A stretch of 31,632 nt of DNA, taken from the IMG/VR virus record IMGVR_UViG_3300042397_001606, positions 1-31,632 of that record; one strand, written 5' to 3'. The stretch comes from a virus. Position 1 is the stretch's first letter, and every line of letters starts with the position of its first letter. This document shows positions 1-31,632 of the stretch, one piece after another. Below the pieces are notes generated by a model. That model worked only from the letters and a program-made list of their open reading frames with translations, was not told the DNA's origin and ran no database searches. A program made the position numbers and the translations under genes.

Positions 1-13
1 GTCCGTTAGTGGC
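1..13. repeat. End of an attC-like site / start of cassette A
   Basis: GTTAGTGGC at 5-13 is the exact reverse complement of GCCACTAAC at 747-755, the other end of this cassette. This is the R'/R'' relation expected of an integron cassette. The four preceding bases (GTCC) resemble the C-ending spacer before GTTA in the other sites here (AGGAC, AAAAC, AAACC), so another attC-like site probably lies just to the left. That the site is truncated by the contig end is an inference. Confidence 0.55.
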
Positions 14-17
14 AAGG

Positions 18-482
18 CTAAAGAACGACACCGCTAAATAAGTCGGGAAGATTTTTAACATTGATTTTCTTTTTGTTTGAAGTATCAATACTATTAATCA
101 GCTTTTTTATTTCATTAATGTATTCTTTTTTGTCCCATCCTTCGATTTCGCAAACCATCAAATCAAACATTATTTCTTTCAATAAATGTGCTTGAAACTT
201 TTTTCTTGCAAGTGTGTTTACCGTATTTGCAGGGTAAACATAATCCTCTTGTATTTCTTTCTTTTCAACTATTTTAGTTTGTTTTATTGGTTCAATAAAT
301 TCAATGCGTGGTGTTCCTTTTCTAATTGTTTTTACCAACGCTCTTTTGCCACCATTTAAAACACTTTTTCCATCAGTGCAAAAATCATATCCACTTAAAG
401 GAGAGCCACAAGAATTATCTACTTTCCAACCTATCGGCAAAACTTCCAAAACTTCCCAATCTTTATATTTATTCATCTCCAT
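18..482 (-). CDS. Cassette A protein 2, unknown function
   Basis: A 154-aa protein (152 aa if the second ATG at 478-476 is used). I do not recognise it. The N-terminal half holds a compact W-E-V-L...GSPLSGYDFCTDGKSVLNGGKRALV stretch (broken here: GSPLSGYDF, then TDGKSVLNGGKRALV) that looks like a folded small domain; the rest is charged and helical, with KEYINEIKKLI. No signal peptide or membrane segment. Its start overlaps the end of the upstream 83-aa gene, so the two are probably co-translated within one cassette. The stop codon lies directly beside the GTTAGTGGC cassette end, typical of tight cassette packing. Confidence 0.7.
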   Translation of the reverse strand: MEMNKYKDWEVLEVLPIGWKVDNSCGSPLSGYDFCTDGKSVLNGGKRALVKTIRKGTPRIEFIEPIKQTKIVEKKEIQEDYVYPANTVNTLARKKFQAHLLKEIMFDLMVCEIEGWDKKEYINEIKKLINSIDTSNKKKINVKNLPDLFSGVVL

Positions 483-720
483 CTTTATTAAATTGTGATA
501 TAAAATTTTCTACTTTATCATTTAGTAGTTTATAATCATTTTTTACTTCTTTTAATTTATTTTGATAATACAATAATGCTTCAATATAAGCTTCTTGCTC
601 TGTTATAGCTCTCATACTTATATTCATTCCAATAACATAATCGTATAAATAATAACCATCAGTACATTCGTGTAATGAAAGAGTATCAATCTTAAAAACT
701 TTTCTAATTATTTTTGACAT
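469..720 (-). CDS. Cassette A protein 1, unknown function
   Basis: An 83-aa protein with an N-terminal part rich in aromatic residues (TDGYYLYDYVIG) and a charged, probably coiled-coil C-terminal half (QNKLKEVKNDYKLLNDKVENF). It is not recognised. It starts about 27 bases inside the cassette end and overlaps the following gene by 14 bases, so cassette A carries a two-gene unit. No promoter of the TAnnTTTG type is visible upstream, so it probably depends on transcription entering from the neighbouring gene. Confidence 0.65.
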   Translation of the reverse strand: MSKIIRKVFKIDTLSLHECTDGYYLYDYVIGMNISMRAITEQEAYIEALLYYQNKLKEVKNDYKLLNDKVENFISQFNKDGDE

Positions 721-746
721 TATCTTTAAGTTTTGTGAAAAGCCCA

Positions 747-883
747 GCCACTAACAGCGTGTATAAAAAATGGCGGGTTTATCGATTAATTTAAAGTTCA
801 GTAATTATATCAAAGTTATGCGTTTGCTGAAAGTTTTGGAGTTATAATCCGCCACTTCTTATACACGCAGGACGTTATAATAC
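747..883. repeat. attC-like recombination site A
   Basis: An imperfect palindrome of about 130 bp. Outer box GCCACTAAC (747-755), one spacer base, left stem GCGTGTATAA (757-766), inner stem TGGCGG (771-776), a variable loop, inner stem CCGCCA (849-854), right stem TTATACACGC (859-868), a 5-base spacer AGGAC, then GTTATAATAC (874-883). The plan R''-stem-loop-stem-R' ending in GTT matches integron attC sites of the long Vibrio-repeat type. R' overlaps the stop codon of the DnaA-like gene. The predicted crossover is between G874 and T875. The call as attC is inference from architecture. Confidence 0.6.
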
Positions 884-999
884 TTTCTTCCCAGTATAAG
901 CAGTTAATCGCAAAATTGCACTTTCAACTTTTCTAAATTTATCTGACCTATCTTTTAACCATAAAATATCTTCAATAGTATCTTTTGAATGAATTACAG
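873..999. repeat. 127-bp exact repeat of the right contig end
   Basis: Bases 873-999 are identical to 31506-31632. The match starts at the attC/phage junction and runs into the 3' part of the DnaA-like gene. The length equals a common maximal assembler k-mer (127), so this is most likely an assembly overlap: the same phage sequence reached from two different left neighbours. It closes the phage into a circle of 30,633 bp. Confidence 0.85.
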
Positions 1000-1258
1000 T
1001 TGAATGGTCATAGAGATGTTCTGTAAGTTGGCCAATTGCTTTATAAGTATAAAGAGTAAACTTGTGACATAAATATTGAAATAATTGCCTTCCAAACATT
1101 ATATCTCTTTGCCTTGTATGTTTATTGATTTGTGGCCAACTAATATTTAAAGTTTCTTTTATAACCTCTTTTATTTTGATAATAATTAAATTATCGTTGG
1201 TTACTTTAGGCTGCTGATATTGCACGGCAGCCTTGTAAATGTTAAATGTTGGTGTCAT
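875..1258 (-). CDS. DnaA domain IV-like DNA-binding protein
   Basis: A 127-aa protein whose residues 40-100 resemble the DnaA C-terminal DNA-binding domain: a basic helix with RQRDIMFGRQL (50-60), then the signature-like DHSTVIHS (84-91), close to the DnaA-box reading motif of DnaA. It lacks the AAA+ ATPase domain, so it should bind DNA without ATP-driven origin melting. It overlaps the exonuclease gene by 17 bases and ends the operon that starts near 2480. Possible roles are phage origin recognition, repression, or competition with host DnaA; the choice between them is inference. Its stop codon is inside the attC-like R' box. Confidence 0.75.
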   Translation of the reverse strand: MTPTFNIYKAAVQYQQPKVTNDNLIIIKIKEVIKETLNISWPQINKHTRQRDIMFGRQLFQYLCHKFTLYTYKAIGQLTEHLYDHSTVIHSKDTIEDILWLKDRSDKFRKVESAILRLTAYTGKKVL

Positions 1259-2747: not shown

Positions 2748-3171
2748 TTAATAATTCGGGGTTTTCGTAAATGTTGCCAATAACACTACATTGATTTAAC
2801 CATTGTGATGTCTGCATATCTGCGCATGCGCTAAAAAACTGTGTTTCTTTTCCAAAATCAGAATTATGTGCATTTATTGCAAGACCACCATCAACACGAA
2901 AAACAGTATATTTTTGATGCCTACCTAGTTCATTTTTAAACTCTAAAATATCTCCCTCGTAAATTTCTTTTCCGTTTTTATCGGTTAATCCTGTAAATTG
3001 CTGTAATACTTGAGTATTAGAATAGAAATACTCCCCCTCTCGATAGTTTTCCCAATCTTTTAACATAATACCAAAAGCGTTAAAATCTGTTTGAACAACT
3101 GCCCATAAATCTATTGGAATAAATACCTTTTTATACAAATCCCAAACTTTAAATTTTATTACTCTATTCAT
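2734..3171 (-). CDS. YopX family protein
   Basis: A 145-aa protein with the hallmarks of the YopX family: an N-terminal IKFKVWDLYKK, the central QFTGLTDKNGKEIYEGDILEF, and a C-terminal SVIGNIYENPELL. Members are common in phages of Firmicutes and Bacteroidetes and form a beta-barrel-like fold; no biochemical role is settled. It lies among small accessory genes, with one-base overlap to the upstream coiled-coil gene. The family call is firm; function remains open. Confidence 0.9.
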   Translation of the reverse strand: MNRVIKFKVWDLYKKVFIPIDLWAVVQTDFNAFGIMLKDWENYREGEYFYSNTQVLQQFTGLTDKNGKEIYEGDILEFKNELGRHQKYTVFRVDGGLAINAHNSDFGKETQFFSACADMQTSQWLNQCSVIGNIYENPELLNEQI

Positions 3172-3410
3172 TATATTTCGTTGTTTAACTGTTTAATTAA
3201 TTGTCTTATTTGCTGTTTTTGTAATTCAATAATCTTTTCCTTTTCGATTATTTTCGAGTATCTTGACTTGTTAGCACAAAATAAATCATTGTTTAAATTT
3301 GAAATTTCAATGTTGTGGTGCAATGCTGCGATGTCTTCTTTACGTTCCTGGATTTCGGCCAAACACCTACGAATATTGTAAGTTAGTTGTAAGATAGTTT
3401 TAATTTCCAT
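3171..3410 (-). CDS. Small coiled-coil protein
   Basis: A 79-aa protein, almost entirely helical. The C-terminal half (IIEKEKIIELQKQQIRQLIK) gives heptad-like hydrophobic spacing. Two cysteines (residues 16 and 45) stand outside it. It overlaps its upstream neighbour by 11 bases and the YopX-family gene by one base, so it is translated as part of the accessory operon. Function not recognised. Confidence 0.65.
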   Translation of the reverse strand: MEIKTILQLTYNIRRCLAEIQERKEDIAALHHNIEISNLNNDLFCANKSRYSKIIEKEKIIELQKQQIRQLIKQLNNEI

Positions 3411-3651
3411 GCTCTAATACTTTAAAACCTATTTCCATACTAATTAACCCTTTTTTTGTTTCAGCTATTTTATCTGCATACCATTCTTCACCAACTAATT
3501 TTGTATTGGCATAAGAAATAGTAGTTTCTTTTCCTTTGCCTTGATTTGTTACAACCATGTATTCGCCTATGTCGTTACGTTGTAGGCTAACTGTAATTGG
3601 GCTTAAATTGTCGCTCTGTGGCGTTATTATTGTCCGTTTTATTAATTCCAT
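3400..3651 (-). CDS. Small beta-rich protein, unknown
   Basis: An 83-aa protein with alternating hydrophobic patterns suggestive of beta strands (PITVSLQRNDIGEYMVVTNQ), a GKGKETTISYANT stretch, and a short helical end. No cysteine, signal or membrane segment. It directly follows the 76-aa gene with one base between them, and overlaps the next gene by 11 bases. Function not recognised. Confidence 0.65.
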   Translation of the reverse strand: MELIKRTIITPQSDNLSPITVSLQRNDIGEYMVVTNQGKGKETTISYANTKLVGEEWYADKIAETKKGLISMEIGFKVLEHGN

Positions 3652-3652
3652 T

Positions 3653-3883
3653 TTATAAATTGTTTAATTCTCTTTTTACTTCAAACCAAAAATTAAGTCT
3701 GTTAAAATTATCTATTGAATTATGCGACTTATACAAATCAGTCATTTCTTTAATCATTTCATCAATTGCTATTAATGCGCATTGTTTCGATTTTGACAAA
3801 TTATCTTTTTCACTATAAAAAGGTAGTTTCGTGCTAAACTTATTTACAAATTCCTTTGCTTTTACTTTTGGTGTTAATTCCAT
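3653..3883 (-). CDS. Small conserved-type phage protein
   Basis: A 76-aa protein of the pattern P-x-x-KAKEFVNKF ... KQCALIAIDEMI ... FWFEVKRELNNL. I have the impression of a widespread small family in Bacteroidetes phages and integrated elements, always near accessory genes, without a known role. All helical, no signal or membrane segment. It overlaps the upstream gene by 10 bases. Confidence 0.72.
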   Translation of the reverse strand: MELTPKVKAKEFVNKFSTKLPFYSEKDNLSKSKQCALIAIDEMIKEMTDLYKSHNSIDNFNRLNFWFEVKRELNNL

Positions 3884-4780: not shown

Positions 4781-4813
4781 ATTTTTAATTATTTATTGAT
4801 TGTTATCTGAGTT

Positions 4814-4841
4814 CAAATGTAGTATTACTTTTGGTAATACC
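4814..4841 (-). promoter_or_regulatory. Leftward promoter with perfect inverted-repeat operator
   Basis: -7 box TACATTTG (4821-4814) is preceded by GTATTAC-TTTTG-GTAATAC, read here on the plus strand at 4822-4840: a perfect 7-bp inverted repeat with 5-bp spacer. The same block occurs near 2485 and, more diverged, near 26761. The sequence downstream (ACTCAGATAACAA) also resembles that of the promoter at 26753 (CCTCAGATAATAA). It should drive the accessory operon 4780 to 2514. Confidence 0.7.
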
Positions 4842-4897
4842 ATAATAAAAATAAAAATAAATTGTAACTACCTATAAATCAAACAAATATTTTTCAT

Positions 4898-30527: not shown

Positions 30528-30770
30528 TTAAAATGGTAATTTTTCTTTAATTATTAAAATTTTAGTTAGTGGATAATTAGGCAATCTACTCTCAGCTTTA
30601 AATTTTCTATTGATAAAATAACCATAAGACCCACTGTTTAACTGTCGTTTATAAACCTTACCATTGTCACAATTTATTAAGCCAATATCGCTTAATACTA
30701 AGTTAGTATGCTTAACTCCTGCATACACAATTATAATTGTATCAAGATTTATCTTTTGTAAATACTGCAT
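30528..30770 (-). CDS. First phage gene after the cassettes, unknown
   Basis: An 80-aa beta-rich, basic protein (DTIIIVYAGVKHTNLVLSDI, VYKRQLNSGSYGYFINRKFK) ending KEKLPF. Looks like a small DNA-binding or NUMOD4/HNH-accessory type fold, but no family is claimed. Its start is about 30 bases from the cassette insertion point at 30800, so in the cassette-free arrangement it would directly follow the DnaA-like gene. Confidence 0.6.
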   Translation of the reverse strand: MQYLQKINLDTIIIVYAGVKHTNLVLSDIGLINCDNGKVYKRQLNSGSYGYFINRKFKAESRLPNYPLTKILIIKEKLPF

Positions 30771-30789
30771 TCTTATACTTTTTATTCGC

Positions 30790-30808
30790 CAATCTACAAG
30801 TTAGCACC
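30790..30808. other. Cassette insertion site on the phage (attI/attG-like)
   Basis: The phage sequence AATCTACAAG joins TTAGCACC, the start of cassette B1. Only a bare G|TT site is present, without the palindrome of an attC. Removing both cassettes rebuilds CTACAAG|TTATAATAC, which leaves the DnaA-like stop about 37 bases before the next ATG, normal spacing for this genome. Inferred target of attC x genomic-site recombination. Confidence 0.5.
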
Positions 30809-31039
30809 AATACTAAGACCGAAGTGCATCTAAGTCAAATCCCATTTCTTCTAACTTTGACCGAAGTGCAATTTCCCAACCTTCTTTTGGTCGTTCTAAA
30901 AAACGATATTCGCTATCGTAGATTAAGTCTTTCATTTCAGCTTCCTTAAAGCCACTGCTATGAACTGATGTGAAAACACAGTCAAAGCATTCGATTAATT
31001 GTTCTCTTGTTGGTTTCATAATAAAGTACTGGTGCTAAC
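30800..31039. mobile_element. Cassette B1
   Basis: Starts GTTAGCACCAATACT (30800-30814) and ends AGTACTGGTGCTAAC (31025-31039): inverted complementary ends over 15 bases with one mismatch. It carries one small gene on the minus strand and is followed by attC-like site B1. Gene orientation is opposite to the attC order suggested by the insertion site. Confidence 0.55.
30813..31019 (-). CDS. Cassette B1 protein, unknown
   Basis: A 68-aa acidic helical protein (PTREQLIECFDCVFTSVHSS, GFKEAEMKDLIYDSEYRFLE, EEMGFDLDALRS). Not recognised. It fills the cassette nearly completely: the stop codon overlaps the left cassette end and the ATG lies about 6 bases before the right inverted end. No promoter of its own is visible, so it relies on read-through from the DnaA-like gene. 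Small acidic cassette proteins can be inhibitors; no claim is made. Confidence 0.65.
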   Translation of the reverse strand: MKPTREQLIECFDCVFTSVHSSGFKEAEMKDLIYDSEYRFLERPKEGWEIALRSKLEEMGFDLDALRS

Positions 31040-31129
31040 AGCGTATATACAAGATACGCCTACAAGCATTTGTTTATAATTTTAAATTTCGTTAAGGCGT
31101 ACCTCGTATATACGCAAAACGTTATGTGC
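31031..31129. repeat. attC-like recombination site B1
   Basis: GGTGCTAAC (31031-31039), spacer A, stem GCGTATATAC (31041-31050), AAGATACGCC, variable loop, GGCGTA (31096-31101), stem GTATATACGC (31106-31115), spacer AAAAC, GTTATGTGC (31121-31129). Same plan as site A: 1-base left and 5-base right spacers and R' starting GTT. Confidence 0.6.
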
Positions 31130-31418
31130 AAGGCTATCAATCGTCATCACCTACAACCTCGTCTAACATTCCGACATAAACATCGCCACAATCTTTTTTG
31201 AACGGAATATTATTATCAATCAATGCTTGTTCAAAATCACATTGACAAAGGCAATAGTCCATTTCAATCGTATTGTGTCCAAATTCTTTTTCAGGCATAA
31301 ATCCAAAGTGTTCTAAAAACTGTCTTGGTGTTTCTATTTCTTTTTCGCCTCTGTTTATTACTACTATATTGCACATATATTTTAAATTTAATTGTTAATA
31401 AAAAGCCCAGCACATAAC
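31121..31418. mobile_element. Cassette B2
   Basis: Starts GTTATGTGC (31121-31129) and ends with its exact complement GCACATAAC (31410-31418). The start GTTATGTGCAAGGCTA resembles that of cassette A (GTTAGTGGCAAGGCTA), and both end regions share AAAAGCCCAGC before the R'' box, showing a common cassette family. One small gene. Confidence 0.55.
31137..31376 (-). CDS. Cassette B2 protein, unknown
   Basis: A 79-aa acidic protein: CNIVVINRGEKEIETPRQFL, EHFGFMPEKEFGHNTIEMDY, CLCQCDFEQALIDNNIPFKK, DEVVGDDD. Alpha/beta composition with four cysteines, a strongly acidic end. Not recognised. Only gene of its cassette; no own promoter seen. Acidic, DNA-mimic-like ends occur in phage anti-defence proteins, but nothing here proves it. 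Confidence 0.65.
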   Translation of the reverse strand: MCNIVVINRGEKEIETPRQFLEHFGFMPEKEFGHNTIEMDYCLCQCDFEQALIDNNIPFKKDCGDVYVGMLDEVVGDDD

Positions 31419-31516
31419 AGCACCTTAGCGTCAGTTTTTGGCTATTTAGTTTATCGGTAACTTGAAAATTTCGGTAAGCCAAAAACCGAACGCCAAGCTG
31501 CAAACCGTTATAATAC
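31410..31516. repeat. attC-like recombination site B2
   Basis: GCACATAAC (31410-31418), then AGC-ACC-TTAGCGT, TTTTTGGCT (31435-31443), variable loop, AGCCAAAAA (31477-31485), ACGCCAA-GCT, spacer ending AAACC, GTTATAATAC (31507-31516). The arms pair with one mismatch. It ends at the same phage base as site A, in a different arm sequence. Confidence 0.58.
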
Positions 31517-31632
31517 TTTCTTCCCAGTATAAGCAGTTAATCGCAAAATTGCACTTTCAACTTTTCTAAATTTATCTGACCTATCTTTTAACCATAAAAT
31601 ATCTTCAATAGTATCTTTTGAATGAATTACAG
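31506..31632 (-). pseudogene. Partial copy of the DnaA-like gene (contig overlap)
   Basis: Identical to 873-999, holding the last 41 codons or so of the DnaA-like gene. It is cut by the contig end and is best read as the same gene seen a second time on a circular molecule, not a second gene. Confidence 0.8.

Follow-up and report, generated by a model that had tools for sequence, protein, structure and literature searches.

The window analysed here is the whole of the IMG/VR virus record IMGVR_UViG_3300042397_001606 (31,632 bp), in which a first-pass annotation had noted two integron-like cassettes, B1 and B2, beside a gene for a DnaA-like protein. In all likelihood, these two and a third unit, A, are integron-type gene cassettes docked in a phage without an integrase of its own and moved by an enzyme of the bacterial host, the last step being inferred. 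That the locus works like an integron cassette array is well supported. It is not filed as a classical integron, because the host integrase lacks the insert of IntI and the open reading frames (ORFs) do not run in the attC direction.

According to the proposed mechanism, B1, B2, and A would be cassettes of a Bacteroidota integron-like system, parked at an attI-like docking site that is flanked by the DnaA-like gene and a small anchor gene. Each cassette consists of one attC-like hairpin followed, in the reading direction, by its ORF, and units join at TAA^C, which is G^TT on the other strand. An IntI-like recombinase of the host would act on the folded ORF-sense strand, and would insert or remove cassettes at the phage docking site during infection. 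To judge from strand and position, the cassettes would be read with the early operon, and the benefit may lie in exchangeable early genes, which in relatives are often methyltransferases that could act against restriction.

Cassette Units and Folded Sites in the Window

B1, B2, and A alike begin and end with 9-nucleotide (nt) sequences that are exact reverse complements of each other (Table 1), as the first-pass annotation had observed for the first two; such complementary R'/R'' ends are also present in many units of related phages. Both cassettes of that annotation are real; unit A (5-755) and the palindrome at 752-877 are not mentioned in it. The long imperfect palindromes that it described are likewise present, with arms at 31041-31061 and 31095-31115 (21 nt, 90% complementary) and at 31431-31443 and 31477-31489 (within a longer imperfect stem), although B1 has one on one side only, its 30800 side being a different, attI-like end. 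A site detector with the pattern TAAC, 5 nt, arm, and then arm, 1 nt, GTT finds three sites in ORF sense (minus strand) and none on the other strand, against 0.3 per strand in Markov sequences. Each of these sites borders on a unit whose 9-nt ends are complementary; in 200 Markov shuffles, by comparison, 37 sites turned up but no such unit. A covariance model built from 27 Bacteroidota host sites alone recovers the same three window sites and has no further match anywhere in the window. No match to the tyrosine recombinase family PF00589 was obtained in the window or in four related phage records, against 8 matches in the host control; no integron integrase with the additional domain of IntI was thus found in the phage by this search.

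Table 1. Coordinates of the cassette locus in the window (aa, amino acids).
Feature	Position	Strand	Remarks
Cassette A body	5-755	-	ends GTTAGTGGC/GCCACTAAC; ORFs 18-482 and 469-720
attC-like site, DnaA-like gene end/A	752-877	-	host-only model R2, 90.7 bits, E 6e-20
DnaA-like gene	875-1258	-	Pfam Bac_DnaA_C; stop TAA and following C form the cassette joint
Anchor gene	30528-30770	-	80 aa; adjoins the docking site at all array ends seen in relatives
Docking (attI-like) end of array	30771-30802		TAAC followed by TTGTAGATTGGCG in ORF sense; array end beside anchor gene
Cassette B1 body	30800-31039	-	GTTAGCACC starts at 30800, GGTGCTAAC ends at 31039; ORF 30813-31019, 68 aa
attC-like site, B2/B1	31036-31124	-	host-only model R2, 62.6 bits, E 7e-13; 5' of B1 ORF, travels with B1
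Cassette B2 body	31121-31418	-	GTTATGTGC starts at 31121, GCACATAAC ends at 31418; ORF 31137-31376, 79 aa
attC-like site, DnaA-like gene end/B2	31415-31510	-	host-only model R2, 41.9 bits, E 1e-7
Exact 127-nt repeat of 873-999	31506-31632	-	two cassette states meet the same DnaA-like gene

All genes of the array locus lie on the minus strand, and B1 and B2 do sit where the earlier annotation had put them, between the DnaA-like gene and the next early gene (30528-30770). The end of the window is identical to 873-999 and thus re-enters the DnaA-like gene. Two different sequences, A and B2, occur to the left of the stop codon of this gene, and they diverge at the cassette joint cGTTATAATAC. The record therefore seems to be one circular genome with two cassette states (A, and B1 with B2) in the sampled population. 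An assembly artefact, in which the two states would be a chimera joined at the overlap while the cassettes themselves are real, is unlikely: a k-mer length of 127 is used by common metagenome assemblers and matches the length of the repeat, but the branch point coincides exactly with a cassette joint, and independent virus records vary in the same manner. State A opens (window 1-13) with GTCC ahead of GTTAGTGGC, which resembles the end of an attC-like site and not the docking end; hence, another cassette probably lies beyond the record start.

No Rfam family covers the sites, and at the B1 hairpin the only Rfam matches are far below gathering scores. Among seven sources, Rfam gave one ribosomal leader at the gathering level (in L146), and the matches in three host regions are unrelated. 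At L161 17846-17916, a DUF805 RNA match just under its gathering score adjoins an attC-like site in a host array. An RNA terminator or processing element as the sole function of the hairpins was dropped, as single cassettes differ exactly at TAA^C joints.

Cassette Differences Between Related Phages

Had B1 and B2 been fixed core genes without palindromes, relatives of the DnaA-like gene should carry them as well. Instead, seven such relatives carry other cassettes behind the TAA-C stop (L003, L005, and L007) or none (L004, L006, L008, and L009), and identity between the window and L003 also ends at TAAC. Over 4,266 bp starting at the docking site, four phage sequences (L214, L215, L216, and L218) are 99.95-100% identical, and they differ in their cassettes; their identity ends exactly to the left of TAAC, with 44-46 nt in common before the ATG of the anchor gene. 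The array of L217 is the same as that of L214. For L214 and L216, the left side is also 99.97% identical over 2,894 bp and two cassettes are held in common, so that the two differ solely in the cassette proximal to the docking site, which encodes a 315-aa C5 methyltransferase in one and an 82-aa ORF in the other, with both joints between TAA and C. Likewise, L211 and L219 are identical up to GGGGCATAACG and then have differing sites and ORFs.

The window cassettes themselves recur elsewhere. B1 is present at 99% identity in L029, where the hairpin upstream of it is the same but the neighbours are others, and relatives of B2 occur in eight viral contigs at 57-92% identity. Matches to the attC model lie beside the B2 relative in five of the eight (L021, L023, L024, L025, and L026); L022 has no site match (the contig ends nearby), L027 has sites elsewhere in the locus, and L028 has none. 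A search of 50,697 phage records with B1, B2, and the anchor gave no match. Since B1 travels with its hairpin, these comparisons and those of the joints indicate that the mobile unit is hairpin plus ORF, with the hairpin first in the reading direction. The earlier label of integron-like cassettes is thus borne out by the exact TAA^C differences, by the host-only covariance model, and by the occurrence of B1 and B2 among other neighbours. In L218 (about 3725-3760), a very short stretch without an ORF, GTTATAGCA...TGCTATAAC, adjoins the docking site and resembles a cassette of about 30 nt.

Docking Site and Anchor Gene

Relatives of the anchor gene in L003/L018, L019, and L020 immediately adjoin the end of an array. 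With a wider search, the number of anchor loci comes to 12, among them L210 and L219, which are phages already seen; attC-model matches lie upstream in 11 of the 12, and the twelfth (L215) has merely 154 nt upstream. In G006, the docking site, array, and anchor are found at another locus, whose flanks resemble, by eye, relatives of window genes 3400-3651 and 3171-3410, and the DnaA-like gene of G006 is empty. This separate location suggests that docking site and anchor together form an independent module. The predicted fold of the anchor protein (predicted local distance difference test, pLDDT, 52) is too weak for use.

In many hosts, the last cassette is followed, beside the integrase stop, by TAAC and then T, a variable base or two, and T(T/A)TATA; such an end is shared by 10 of the 16 host regions in which the array was usable. 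From these 16 regions, 12 ends were picked by eye and an attI matrix was built from 10 of them (excluding L147 and L148, which differ in appearance; L149, L152, L154, and L158 are not among the 12). By this host matrix, the phage docking site ranks first among 519 AAC sites in L005 and first among 995 in G006, both of which carry the motif without an integrase, and fourth among 529 in L003.

Site Family and Host Arrays

The strict site pattern was found in 85 stretches of an 84,980-species collection, nearly all of them titled Bacteroidota. The exceptions listed are a Klebsiella metagenome-assembled genome (MAG), two contigs of Limnohabitans MAGs, and a Chlorobiota MAG, besides one Balneolales MAG. 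An alignment of 39 sites (12 phage and 27 host) gives a consensus of 23 base pairs, 18 of which have changed on both sides, with a one-sided 4-nt bulge, a 1x1 mismatch, and a conserved G-T wobble. Canonical attC sites are laid out with extrahelical bases and bipartite boxes. The fold of the ORF-sense strand is the more stable one in 46 of 65 sites and the less stable one in 17.

These sites are concentrated around a gene for an IntI-like protein. In site-bearing genomes, 18 of 20 regions around this gene contain sites (in L151 and L163 they lie on its other side), and at a score of 15 there are 50 sites in 359 kb near the gene and none in 400 kb elsewhere in the same genomes. The wider sample consisted of 120 genomes of the Flavobacteriaceae, the family of G008 (Flavobacterium denitrificans). 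The site model matches in 101 of them and the IntI-like profile (E <= 1e-60) in 86; the profile is found in 81 of the 101 site-bearing and in 5 of the 19 site-free genomes (p 9e-6, from a hand count uncorrected for kinship). Orientation was counted among the matches listed (150 site rows and 100 IntI-like rows, with eight weak rows of G146 excluded): 30 sites share a contig with an IntI-like gene at a distance of up to 60 kb, and 25 of them (18 genomes) lie on its 3' side with their ORFs directed toward it.

This host distribution also bears on ordinary phage mosaicism, in which phage recombination proteins (YqaJ exonuclease, annealing protein, and NinG) would swap small genes and the hairpins would be transcript features or hot spots. 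Phages are mosaic, intergenic hairpins can act in RNA, and relatives of YqaJ and NinG are encoded in the window (Pfam, PHROG). Nevertheless, such an origin is very unlikely, as the joints share few bases (TAACG) and are yet exact in several pairs, every unit has its own complementary ends, and the same site family stands beside an integrase in hosts.

Single cassettes of the family can be widespread: one (hairpin plus GTTAGTGGCTGGGCTTCTT...) recurs across many Bacteroidota genomes behind different 8-nt contexts (L031, L034, L042, L050, L053, L056, L065, L068, L076, L078, L081, L086, and L087). Four sites of the family are also present at 1702-2766 of the cultured Flavobacterium phage 11b (L222, AJ842011.2), with small ORFs between them.

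The Host IntI-Like Recombinase

The proposed host enzyme is an IntI-like protein without the insert that is specific to IntI. Host proteins match the integron integrase model TIGR02249 below its cut-off and in two pieces (about 2-181 and 240-315), which leaves about 182-239 of the model unmatched. When one of them was compared with PDB sequences, its best relative was IntI4 (2a3v), of which chain residues 206-245, approximately, are unmatched. Ten aligned host proteins have in common the catalytic R, K, H, R, H, and Y positions as well as a C-terminal SPxD. On NF040815, four host proteins score 201-219 bits, with a cut-off of 220. At E <= 1e-20, TIGR02249 marks 37 of 39 host genomes that carry the sites but also 4 of 14 controls, and therefore lacks specificity; it was replaced by proximity and a dedicated profile. 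On contig C1 of the genome G146 there are ten IntI-like matches, of which eight hardly differ in score or length, which looks as if the integrase gene itself had multiplied.

It is most improbable that canonical integrons of other bacteria, whose IntI has the additional domain, move the cassettes and that the Bacteroidota gene is a bystander: IntI1 did recombine one Polaribacter phage site according to Qi et al., 2023 (PMC9892861), and the host protein does fall under the integron-integrase cut-off, but that cut-off is passed in none of the 39 site-bearing genomes, and the insert-less gene is tightly linked to the arrays, oriented to them, and co-occurs with the sites as counted above.

Weight of the Evidence and Implications

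It is fairly probable that the Bacteroidota harbor a widespread, unrecognised class of integrons, with an insert-less IntI-like recombinase, hairpin sites of their own, and cassette genes directed toward the integrase, and that phages of these bacteria carry integrase-free docking sites with a resident anchor gene, at which early genes, such as methyltransferases against restriction, would be exchanged by the host enzyme. Several points weigh against the proposed host-driven docking. The insert that the host integrase lacks is described in the literature as essential for integron function (PMC8138268). At the cut-off used, 20 of the 101 site-bearing genomes have no integrase, and 5 of the 30 nearby sites listed (5 genomes) are arranged otherwise. 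By the host matrix, the docking site ranks weakly in the window (13 of 1401), as well as in L019 (30 of 459) and L020 (35 of 379), so that the attI reading of the window site rests mainly on its position. Lastly, B2 was not found in the 395 Flavobacteriales genomes searched, which gives no sign of B2 passing directly from host arrays to phages or back. Phage arrays may therefore hold a cargo pool of their own.

If the proposed system is real, a docking site for host-mobilised cassettes would provide a modular and quick means of changing phage early genes, as well as a viral route for cassettes between hosts. A working host protein would also mean that integron recombination can do without the insert that has been called essential for it. 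IntegronFinder 2.0 names Salinibacter ruber as the complete integron in the Bacteroidetes proper (PMC9024848), and this, together with the frequency of site matches in Flavobacteriaceae, suggests that integrons of the large phylum Bacteroidota have been passed over by standard searches. In phage 11b, a cultured phage with such an array is available.

Relation to Known Systems

Phage cassette arrays are already known, and arrays as such are not new, contrary to the first-pass annotation, which had proposed them as a new way for phages to carry small cargo. Clusters of attC sites without an integrase (CALINs) have been described in phages, including P12002L of Polaribacter with methyltransferases, whose site P12002L_attC2 is the one recombined by IntI1 (Qi et al., 2023, PMC9892861). 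By the present site model, P12002L has two sites, both of them weak (28.9 and 22.4 bits). The main text of that article makes no mention of Flavobacterium phage 11b. The locus falls under the CALIN definition of at least two attC sites without an integrase, with two model sites in state B and one in state A. It also resembles the arrays of the 2023 article in its attC-like sites, small genes, methyltransferases, and presence in a virulent Bacteroidota phage without an integrase. On the other hand, the present arrays have a docking site that is fixed and accompanied by an anchor gene, near-identical phages differ exactly by single cassettes, every ORF has its hairpin on the 5' side, and the site family is linked with a host integrase that has no insert.

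Chromosomal integrons of the sedentary type, which have IntI, likewise show a cassette array, complementary ends, folded sites, and a polarity from one end (here a putative attI) beside a tyrosine recombinase, and among solved structures IntI4 is the best relative of the one host protein compared. In contrast, the host protein here has no IntI insert, the array lies 3' of its gene, and the ORFs point toward the integrase. With the usual orientation of attC relative to the cassette ORF as reference, the ORFs do not run in the attC direction: each moves together with a hairpin on its 5' side, and its direction is thus the reverse of the one that attC polarity would normally give. Treponema integrons, too, have an integrase gene that is unusually oriented with respect to the array, but there the integrase gene is turned round (PMC3607928), whereas here the genes of the cassettes are read in the direction of the integrase. 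XerA-type recombinases (NF040815, "site-specific tyrosine recombinase/integron integrase") are similar in that host proteins come near their cut-off; these proteins nonetheless stay below it, have an extra N-terminal region, and stand beside cassette arrays.

What is new is the swapping at a fixed docking site, the reversed cassette genes, and the divergent Bacteroidota system. Among the papers listed by literature searches of open-licence PubMed Central (PMC) articles, none was recognised as describing a Bacteroidota array system with an insert-less integrase or an attI docking site in a phage, and neither a docking site with an anchor, nor exact single-cassette differences between near-identical phages, nor reversed ORFs were found there.

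Cargo Genes

Eight of 18 cassette ORFs of relatives, hand-chosen and mostly longer ones, are DNA methyltransferases by Pfam (six N6/N4 and two C5), and one is a YopX protein. In L019, four cassettes have long ORFs, and two of these are N6/N4 methyltransferases. The ORFs of B1 and B2 and the two ORFs of A have no Pfam match above the curated cut-off and no PADLOC match, and the anti-defence role that had been suggested for B1 and B2 thus gains nothing from these searches. The predicted fold of B2 (pLDDT 75) has no PDB match with E <= 0.001, and the A ORF at 469-720 matches PHROG 19040, a family of unknown function.

Virus Record and Likely Host

Pfam matches in the window to terminase, lysozyme, and Clp-type protease families indicate a tailed phage; the portal match is weak (19.5 bits, cut-off 39.1). 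The large terminase shares 63% identity with its counterpart in Flavobacterium phage 11b and 62% with the one in Cellulophaga phage phi10:1, and from this kinship the host of the window phage is likely a member of the Bacteroidota. The early region of the window also contains a direct repeat (47 columns, 85%) at 2463-2507 and 4800-4845.
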